Assembly (NCBI GenBank): GCA_000565255.1
Contig: ASRH01000002.1
Coordinates: forward strand, 124,001 to 188,000
DNA: 64,000 nt
Direction: 5' to 3'
DNA from: Candidatus Aramenus sulfurataquae
GTDB taxonomy: Archaea > Thermoproteota > Thermoprotei_A > Sulfolobales > Sulfolobaceae
The position numbers were made by a program, and so were the translations under genes. The notes under the pieces were generated by a model that was not told the DNA's origin, searched no databases, and saw nothing but the letters and a program-made list of their open reading frames with translations. This document shows positions 10,984 to 16,109 of the stretch, one piece after another (the first letter of the stretch is position 1; the number at the start of each line of letters is the position of its first letter).

Positions 10984-11868
10984 TCATTTCCTCGCGCATT
11001 TTATGATATGGTCCACAATGTGCTTTGCGGGGTTAATTGACGTGGCGGTCATGAACCCCTTCCAAAGGGGAGCGCCGTTGACTTCTAGTATCTTGTAGCC
11101 CCCCTCTAAGTCCTCCACTATATCTATGCCAGAGTACTCCAGACCGAGGATCTCGTTGACCTTCACGCTCAGCTCCACTATCTCCTTTGGAGGTACCATC
11201 ACTTGGGTTATTGCGCCCTGGGCCACATTTGTCTTCCAGTTGTTGGGAGAAATTCTGTAAACTGCTCCCAGTACTTCTCCCCCCACTACGAAGGCCCTAA
11301 TGTCCCTCCCTGGCTTCTTTACGTACTTCTGGATGTAAACTGGCTGGTTTATGGCCAAGATTGACTTTGCGACCCTAAAGACAATGTCGGGATCGCTGGC
11401 TTTTACCGATCCCAAGCCTAGGCTCCCCACCACTGGCTTTATCACCACTTCTCCCCACTTTTCCGCCAGTCTCATTGCCTCAATAGGGTCCTCAACCAAC
11501 GCAGTCTCCGGTACCGGTATGTTGTTCTTCTTTAACACCATTAAACTCCTGAACTTGTCCCTCGCCAGCAGCATGGAAGAGGGTCTATTGACAATGTATA
11601 CCCCGGAGGCTCTCATCTCCTCGAGGACGTCTATTCTCTTCATTAGCTGCTCGGTAGTGACTATAAAGCCCAGGTTTCTCAATATCCCTCCGTCAAAGCT
11701 AACCTCTCTCCCTGCGTAGGTGAAGGTTATCTCATCCTTCTCTATTATACCGCTCAATTTTGAAGGCCTAACGTAGTAGGCCACATGGCCCCTGTTCTTT
11801 ATCTCTAGCAGCAGCTGTTTAGAAGCCTCTGTGACCTTCTGGGACTCGTGAATGACCGCAATCCTTAT
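10984..11868 (-). CDS. RimK-type ATP-grasp ligase with apparent ATA start
   Basis: ATP-grasp ligases of the RimK/LysX/MptN group add amino acids, often glutamate, to a carboxylate. Visible are the ATP-binding [31 protein letters not shown], and the Mg-binding [17 protein letters not shown]. The first canonical start is GTG 11784. The frame upstream, however, still encodes the conserved first strand and helix (RIAVIHESQ then [14 protein letters not shown]) back to an in-frame stop at 11875. No ATG, GTG or TTG is available there, but ATA 11866-11868 is preceded by GGTGA with a 6-nt spacer. The coordinates use that ATA (294 aa). The exact substrate is undetermined. Confidence 0.75.
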
Positions 11869-11894
11869 GACTTTTCACCAAGATTTAACGCAAC

Positions 11895-15005: not shown

Positions 15006-16109
15006 TCTACCTTGAACCTCAGCTTTCCAACCGCCCCTCCGAACGTCTTTTTTATCCACTCCGCCTCTGGTAACTCGTCTCCTACCACGTACACCTTAGC
15101 GCCGTACTTTTCAGCCTCTTGGATAACCTTCTGCAGTTCTGGGTTTTCTTCGTCGTAAACGATTAGGCTGTCAACGGCTCCCATCTCTAGCGCCTTCTTT
15201 ATGTAGTCGAGGCCGTAGACTATGAGGCCGTCGTCCTTTGCCAAGTGGTACTTAAGTTCGTCCATCAGGCTCTGAACTTCTACGTACTTTTGGGACTTCA
15301 GCACGTCCTTCATTCTCATTACCATCTCCCTCAGTCCTGCCTCTCCCTGGTCTCCGAGGTCGACTAGGGGTTCGAGCACAAGTTTCTTAAGCCTATAGTC
15401 TATGTAGTCGCCGTCGAAGAAGTCCTTTTTGGCGTAGCCCGGACCTCCCAGCAGGATCCCCTTAAGCTTGCCCTCTTCAAGGAGGGGGAGAAAGTGCTGG
15501 TTCACCTTCTCCCCTACTTCTTTGAGGAAGTTGTGGTACATCTCCTCGACGATCCTGTCTATTCTTCGTTGAGACTGACCTCCCATCATATGCTTGCCTG
15601 GAACGAATCCCTCGAACTCCTCTAAGACGAGTATCCTAGAGCCCCTTAGGATACCTATGGTCGCTTGGTCCCTCTCTACTATTATGAGCCCGTAGACCTC
15701 GTTCTCCTCAGTCATGTCCTCTAGGAACTCCGTGTGGAAGTACTTGTCCGTCCTGTAGAAGTACACGGTCACCTTTTCTGGAGGAGAGAAGACGTAGCAC
15801 TTATACTCCTCCGTGTCGAAGTTCTCACCGCAGAAGAGGACTAGACCGTTGTCTGGTACCTTTGAGAAACTCATTAGTCTGTCTATTGCTCCAGATATTG
15901 CAGCCTCAACTGCGTCCCTAGTCCTCTTTAGCTTGATGTTTTGGGCTATAGACGCTTCTTGTCTCAACATGTTCACTACGTCTGAGACCGGCCTACCAGG
16001 AGGTACATAGAGCGAGAGAAGAACTGTAGCGGGTGCAGACCACTTCTTGAGTTCCCTTAACAGGGTCTTTAACTCCTGCTTACTTAGGACGTACTTGTCA
16101 AAGACTCAT
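15002..16109 (-). CDS. prf1: Peptide chain release factor aRF1, apparent +1 frameshift at codon 4
   Basis: Archaeal RF1 reads all three stop codons and releases the peptide. Domain 1 has QNIKLKRTR (the NIKS motif, here NIKL), domain 2 has [12 protein letters not shown] with the catalytic GGQ, and domain 3 is complete to the C-terminus. The first ordinary in-frame start is GTG 15976. About 40 conserved codons upstream are clearly coding ([14 protein letters not shown], then [14 protein letters not shown]) and have no ATG, GTG or TTG. ATG 16109 opens M-S-L and hits TGA at once. A +1 shift at CTTTGAC joins it to the main frame as MSLDKYVLSK, giving 368 aa, the normal length. A TATA-like TTTTTAAG (16141-16150) lies 35 bp upstream. 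Confidence 0.85.
16097..16103 (-). promoter_or_regulatory. prfB-like +1 frameshift heptamer CTTTGAC
   Basis: On the minus strand, ATG AGT CTT TGA C runs from 16109. Slippage of the Leu tRNA from CTT to TTT followed by decoding of GAC restores the aRF1 frame. The heptamer is identical to the shift site of bacterial prfB. The sequence is directly visible. Its function in an archaeon is inference, and a single inserted T would create the same pattern. Confidence 0.5.

Follow-up and report, generated by a model that had tools for sequence, protein, structure and literature searches.

A ligase frame with no canonical start codon ahead of its conserved N terminus

At which codon does translation of an ATP-grasp ligase begin when its reading frame offers no canonical start ahead of the conserved N terminus? 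This question is raised by a minus-strand gene in the window, the 64,000-nucleotide stretch of Candidatus Aramenus sulfurataquae contig ASRH01000002.1 that we analyzed, for which the original prediction placed initiation at an ATA codon. Our analysis makes it very likely that translation of this MptN/RimK-like ligase would start at that AUA (positions 11868 to 11866), which appears to be an inherited isoleucine-codon start driven by a Shine-Dalgarno (SD) element. The position of the codon, the lack of a canonical start, the conserved SD with its spacing, and the conserved frame from the AUA onward were all read directly from sequence.

The start region on the minus strand reads CTT GGTGA AAAGTC ATA AGG ATT GCG GTC ATT CAC GAG, and the leader before the ATA is CTTGGTGAAAAGTC. 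The ligase frame is bounded upstream by a TGA at 11877 to 11875, and no canonical start follows in that frame until GTG at 11784 to 11782, 28 codons past the ATA. As originally stated, no ATG, GTG, or TTG occurs in frame between this TGA, whose last base is the position (11875) that had been cited for the stop, and the GTG. We also confirmed the placement of GGTGA (11879 to 11875), a putative SD that shares bases with the in-frame TGA and is separated from the ATA by a spacer of exactly 6 nt (AAAGTC). Further upstream, a TATA-like block (AATAAAAT, 11909 to 11902) lies approximately 35 to 41 nt 5' of the start and probably represents the promoter. The upstream gene on the same strand (12743 to 11895) encodes a hexaprenyl diphosphate synthase (NF040936, 471.8 bits, cutoff 400), whose coding sequence stops 29 nt short of the ligase start in the window's genus and leaves the ATA free of overlap; the start is not covered by any long upstream frame.

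Read from the ATA to its stop, the ligase gene (11868 to 10984) encodes 294 amino acids. The product matched TIGR00768 (198.5 bits, above the cutoff of 143.4) and PF08443 (106.2, above the cutoff of 21) in profile searches, and its best NCBIfam match was MptN, NF040720, over nearly its full length (E = 5e-69). The first two matches place it among RimK-type ATP-grasp ligases. Since its score against NF040720 (232.6 bits) is below the curated equivalog cutoff of 350, we call it MptN-like only; it has the RimK ATP-grasp fold in common with MptN, the tetrahydromethanopterin:alpha-L-glutamate ligase. RimK structures were the closest fold matches of the predicted ligase structure (mean pLDDT of 90.9), in which residues 2 to 7 form strand 1 and residues 14 to 25 form helix 1. 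Both elements are encoded upstream of GTG 11784, as had been proposed from the sequence, so a protein starting at that GTG would lose them.

Relative to the same-genus genome, the region upstream of GTG 11784 contains seven differences at third codon positions and three at first or second positions. This substitution pattern, together with the family-wide alignment, indicates that the ligase frame is coding upstream of the GTG. In a coding scan of the window's genome (G000) against genome G001, divergence was too low and many shadow open reading frames (ORFs) passed, with only the ligase and the archaeal release factor gene aRF1 looking genuine.

Conservation of the isoleucine codon across Sulfolobaceae and beyond

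The ligase gene was present in all 31 Sulfolobaceae genomes, a set whose named members are Metallosphaera yellowstonensis, Metallosphaera javensis, and the Sulfolobales archaea HS-7 and Acd1. We take genome G015 of this set to be Sulfolobus acidocaldarius DSM 639, and the genus labels Sulfodiicoccus-like and Saccharolobus-like are likewise presumed names. Aligning the starts of homologues, we found the window's ATA at the exact column of the orthologues' initiator codon (ATG, GTG, or TTG). This column contained ATT or ATA in 21 of the 31 genomes, which represent seven genera: ATA in both genomes of the window's genus and ATT in 19 genomes of six other genera. GGTGA or GGTGG was located exactly 6 nt 5' of the codon in 21/21. 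These findings support the proposed ATA start, which had been drawn from a single sequence, through the same SD and spacing ahead of ATT in six other genera. Of the 21 genomes, 19 use ATT as the start codon, while the other four invariant isoleucine columns of the protein use mixed codons. The AUU at 11862 had been offered as an alternative start; it is unlikely to serve as one, being 12 nt from the SD and varying among ATT, TTA, CTT, and ATA in relatives.

An in-frame GTG was observed seven codons upstream in 3 of the 21 ATT/ATA genomes and not in their relatives. Among the remaining Sulfolobaceae, six Metallosphaera genomes have TTG one codon upstream of the start column, and in two genomes of the Sulfodiicoccus-like genus the column itself is TTG. 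Acd1 has ATG there (ATG CGG ATC GCC GTA ATA versus ATA AGG ATT GCG GTC ATT in the window), and HS-7 has ATA, preceded three to four codons upstream by in-frame GTGs. On a ligase tree inferred with the first residues left out, start type requires three changes, with the window's genus placed as sister to Metallosphaera. Nineteen of the 21 cases represent one codon by descent, leaving few independent events within the family.

We also examined another 60 Thermoproteota orthologues, in which ATG, GTG, or TTG occupied the start column in 45 and the position one codon upstream in 11. The column contained ACG in the other four, three of which lack a near canonical start and one of which also has a GTG three codons upstream. 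Within Thermoproteales, an arrangement of GGTGA or GGTGG, 6 nt, and then ATA was seen in four Caldivirga-like genomes and in two that are Thermocladium-like, at the codon where Vulcanisaeta-like relatives have ATG; one of the Caldivirga-like genomes has an additional ATG four codons further in. These alignments indicate that an isoleucine start of the ligase occurs with an identical layout in two distant lineages.

Ribosome pairing and alternative readings of the ligase start

The 3' tail of the organism's own 16S rRNA, ...GGATCACCTCA, is fully complementary to GGTGA, and ordinary SD genes on the 254-kb contig show a spacing peak of 6 to 7 nt. We scanned 217 nonoverlapping ORFs of at least 150 codons on this contig for a layout of GGTGR or GAGGT, 5 to 7 nt, and an isoleucine, ACG, or CTG codon. 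The ligase was the sole gene among them with such an SD-spaced codon before its first canonical start, which makes a chance arrangement unlikely. Leaders of the ligase gene across the family have in common the A/T-rich TATA-like block, always placed approximately 35 to 41 nt upstream, and GGTG at -11, with the remainder variable; this pattern suggests that the ligase mRNA has a very short, SD-bearing leader.

Given initiation at AUA or AUU, it is quite possible, if somewhat short of probable, that the codon is simply tolerated, with a strong SD at the best spacing rendering its identity nearly neutral and without regulation. Third-base mutations among AUH codons keep the trait, and both the canonical TTG starts of Metallosphaera and the Sulfodiicoccus-like genus and the ACG codons of the four other Thermoproteota genomes are as expected of a permissive position. 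However, ATG is one base away and no overlapping gene constrains the site, yet ATT has persisted over six genera, and Caldivirga and Thermocladium moved to ATA separately.

A second alternative, which we consider very unlikely, is that ribosomes start in the neighboring frame, at the GUG inside GGUGA (11878 to 11876) or at UUG (11881 to 11879), and then shift +1 into the ligase frame. A GTG is present at -10 in 21 of 21 genomes, and its frame reaches a stop within two to four codons in all genera except that of the window; the aRF1 gene, 4 kb away, carries a conserved, probable +1 site. As this GTG is always 10 nt upstream by being part of GGTGA, its position alone is compatible with a frameshift, but the SD itself accounts for the GTG at -10. 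The codons that precede the stop vary among genera, the frame stays open for 19 codons in the window's genus with no early stop, and a conserved slippery codon with a stop in a preshift frame, such as the NUU_stop motif of aRF1, was not found for the ligase in the 21 genomes. Moreover, a +1 shift leaves unexplained why ATT or ATA always occurs at 6 nt, in the column of the orthologues' ATG.

The chance that the upstream region is untranslated and that the protein begins at GTG 11784 or another downstream canonical codon is slimmer still. This GTG is the first canonical codon in the ligase frame, but it is missing in the same-genus orthologue, so the start there that would have countered the original prediction did not hold. 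The first canonical codon of relatives varies in position (+4, +18, or +20) or is absent within 32 codons, whereas the residues encoded upstream of GTG 11784 are conserved as protein and form strand 1 and helix 1. Finally, the window's genome is a draft of 46 contigs, but loss of a normal ATG through sequencing or assembly error has a virtually negligible probability and is ruled out as the cause by relatives, as the second genome of the genus also reads ATA and complete genomes in other genera read ATT; the refuting condition set with the original prediction, ATG in homologues together with ATG in reads here, did not occur.

Other genes with probable isoleucine-codon starts

Our scan for other isoleucine starts covered approximately 1 Mb from two genomes, with 254 kb taken from the window's genome and about 781 kb from G015. 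FEN1 was located in 29 family genomes, and its predicted start is an isoleucine codon in every one of them (ATA in 25, ATC in 3, and ATT in 1), including the S. acidocaldarius-like genome (G015:C1:617953). This codon occupies the Met column of MGVDL, 5 to 6 nt after an SD, and the N terminus expected from it is (M)GVDLGEIVEDVK. The AUA usually overlaps the UAG stop of the upstream frame (AUAG), and a one-base change would yield the common AUGA. Chain A of S. solfataricus FEN1 (PDB 2izo; 346 residues) is without the first residues (IGVDLA) encoded from the isoleucine start in the corresponding genome, perhaps as a consequence of start calling. If start calling is restricted to AUG, GUG, and UUG, proteins with isoleucine starts would be truncated.

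Of 25 family genomes, 24 have ATT, ATA, or ATC as the predicted start of a small-domain methyltransferase (G015:C1:12305, minus strand); in 22 of them, this codon follows GGTGA by 7 nt. The start lies inside the C-terminal coding sequence of the upstream gene. Because the FEN1 and methyltransferase starts overlap an upstream gene, their codon choice is limited by the overlap. The ligase, without such an overlap, is the clean case among these genes. A type 2 isopentenyl diphosphate isomerase (IDI-2; G015:C1:68396) has ATT at 6 nt from GGTGA in Sulfolobus, ATT in one g9 genome, ATT plus an in-frame GTG three codons upstream in others, and ATG in Metallosphaera and Saccharolobus-like genomes. Altogether, the comparisons indicate that a small group of SD-driven AUU, AUA, and AUC starts is retained in Sulfolobaceae and that the isoleucine-start trait is family-wide and common to at least two further genes, which extends beyond the single-sequence view of the original prediction.

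Two further frames in G015 were observed on the plus strand. An ABC ATPase frame (G015:C1:806397) contains no canonical start for 50 codons and may start at an ATA or ATT just past the TGA of the upstream gene by coupling. A frame that resembles EPSP synthase by eye (G015:C1:152451) contains none for 52 codons; an ACG or ATC start, or a frameshift, is possible. We set aside the other frame extensions in the scans, which for the most part resembled broken genes, untranslated regions, or antisense shadows.

A model for SD-driven initiation at isoleucine codons

We propose that GGUGA pairs with the 16S tail (...GGAUCACCUCA) and thereby positions the 30S subunit so that the isoleucine codon, lying 6 nt downstream, would occupy the P site. 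There, initiator Met-tRNA would start on AUA via a third-position mismatch, with methionine presumably still being inserted. The weak codon may be kept because expression is held low or is made sensitive to start-codon stringency, as set by aIF1, by analogy with AUU under IF3 in bacteria. A regulatory role of isoleucine-codon starts is therefore something that we infer from this parallel.

An archaeal initiation review describes AUG, GUG, and UUG starts (PMC7531240), and AUU was a very rare finding in a genome-wide study of start-codon switches (PMC5622118). Bacterial AUU, AUC, and AUA starts are known and are discriminated against by IF3 (PMC4611024), and repression of AUU by IF3 is credited to La Teana 1993 as cited in PMC1976387. 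aIF1 of S. solfataricus has been reported to discriminate against noncanonical starts, as cited in PMC6237735 and PMC8211752. We counted this discrimination against the AUA start; combined with that by IF3 in bacteria, it also makes stringency-based control of isoleucine starts plausible by analogy. Our literature search on AUU or near-cognate starts in archaea or Sulfolobus found no report on point.

In Escherichia coli, infC (which encodes IF3) and pcnB have AUU start codons. The archaeal genes resemble these two in having an AUH start behind a good SD that is conserved among relatives and in the discrimination by an initiation factor against start codons of this kind. They differ in using an archaeal ribosome with aIF1, aIF1A, and aIF2 in place of IF3 and in comprising several unrelated genes of one archaeal family (the ligase, FEN1, and the methyltransferase), identified here by sequence comparison. 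Unlike infC, none of the archaeal isoleucine-start genes that we found encodes an initiation factor.

A broader proposal, which we regard as rather unlikely, is that Sulfolobaceae, along with Caldivirga and Thermocladium for the ligase, keep a defined set of genes with AUU, AUA, or AUC starts as a regulon whose expression would be set by initiation stringency through the level of aIF1. If so, changed start-codon fidelity would retune FEN1, the ligase, the methyltransferase, and others together. Conserved AUH starts would provide natural, genetically tractable messages for probing start-codon selection by aIF1, aIF1A, and aIF2; we found no report of natural AUH substrates of the eukaryote-like archaeal initiation machinery in the literature searched.

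A likely programmed +1 frameshift in aRF1

The aRF1 gene (16109 to 15002; TIGR03676, 439.9 bits, cutoff 234.7) lies 4 kb from the ligase on the same strand. Its own frame contains no canonical start for 43 codons, and the preceding frame reads ATG AGT CTT TGA C, with ATG at 16109 to 16107, CTT at 16103 to 16101, and TGA at 16100 to 16098. ATG AGT CTT followed by a stop is kept in all 30 family genomes read out (TGA in 28 and TAG in 2), and a +1 shift at this site enters aRF1. In other families, NTT_TAG recurs before aRF1 (ATG AGT ATT TAG C, ATG AGT GTT TAG C, GTG GGC ATA ATT TAG C, and others), and some genomes have a plain in-frame ATG, one of them reading ATG GTT AGC.

The +1 shift motif of bacterial RF2 (prfB) is CUU UGA C, and archaeal factors have been described as lacking such autoregulation (PMC3521657). 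In the sections consulted, a review of archaeal recoding from 2021 (PMC8211752) names one reported -1 case and does not mention aRF1. As in bacterial RF2, the aRF1 site combines an early in-frame stop after a slippery NUU codon with a release factor gene in the +1 frame. In contrast, aRF1 is of the archaeal/eukaryal type and unrelated in sequence to RF2, its site uses UAG besides UGA, and the evidence for it is comparative. These comparisons suggest that aRF1 likely carries an RF2-like programmed +1 frameshift.

We also observed that in most family genomes, approximately 3 to 4 kb separates the ligase from aRF1 and the two genes are oriented alike (11868 and 16109 in the window). The genera with ligase TTG starts, Metallosphaera and the Sulfodiicoccus-like genus, show no such linkage, possibly by coincidence.
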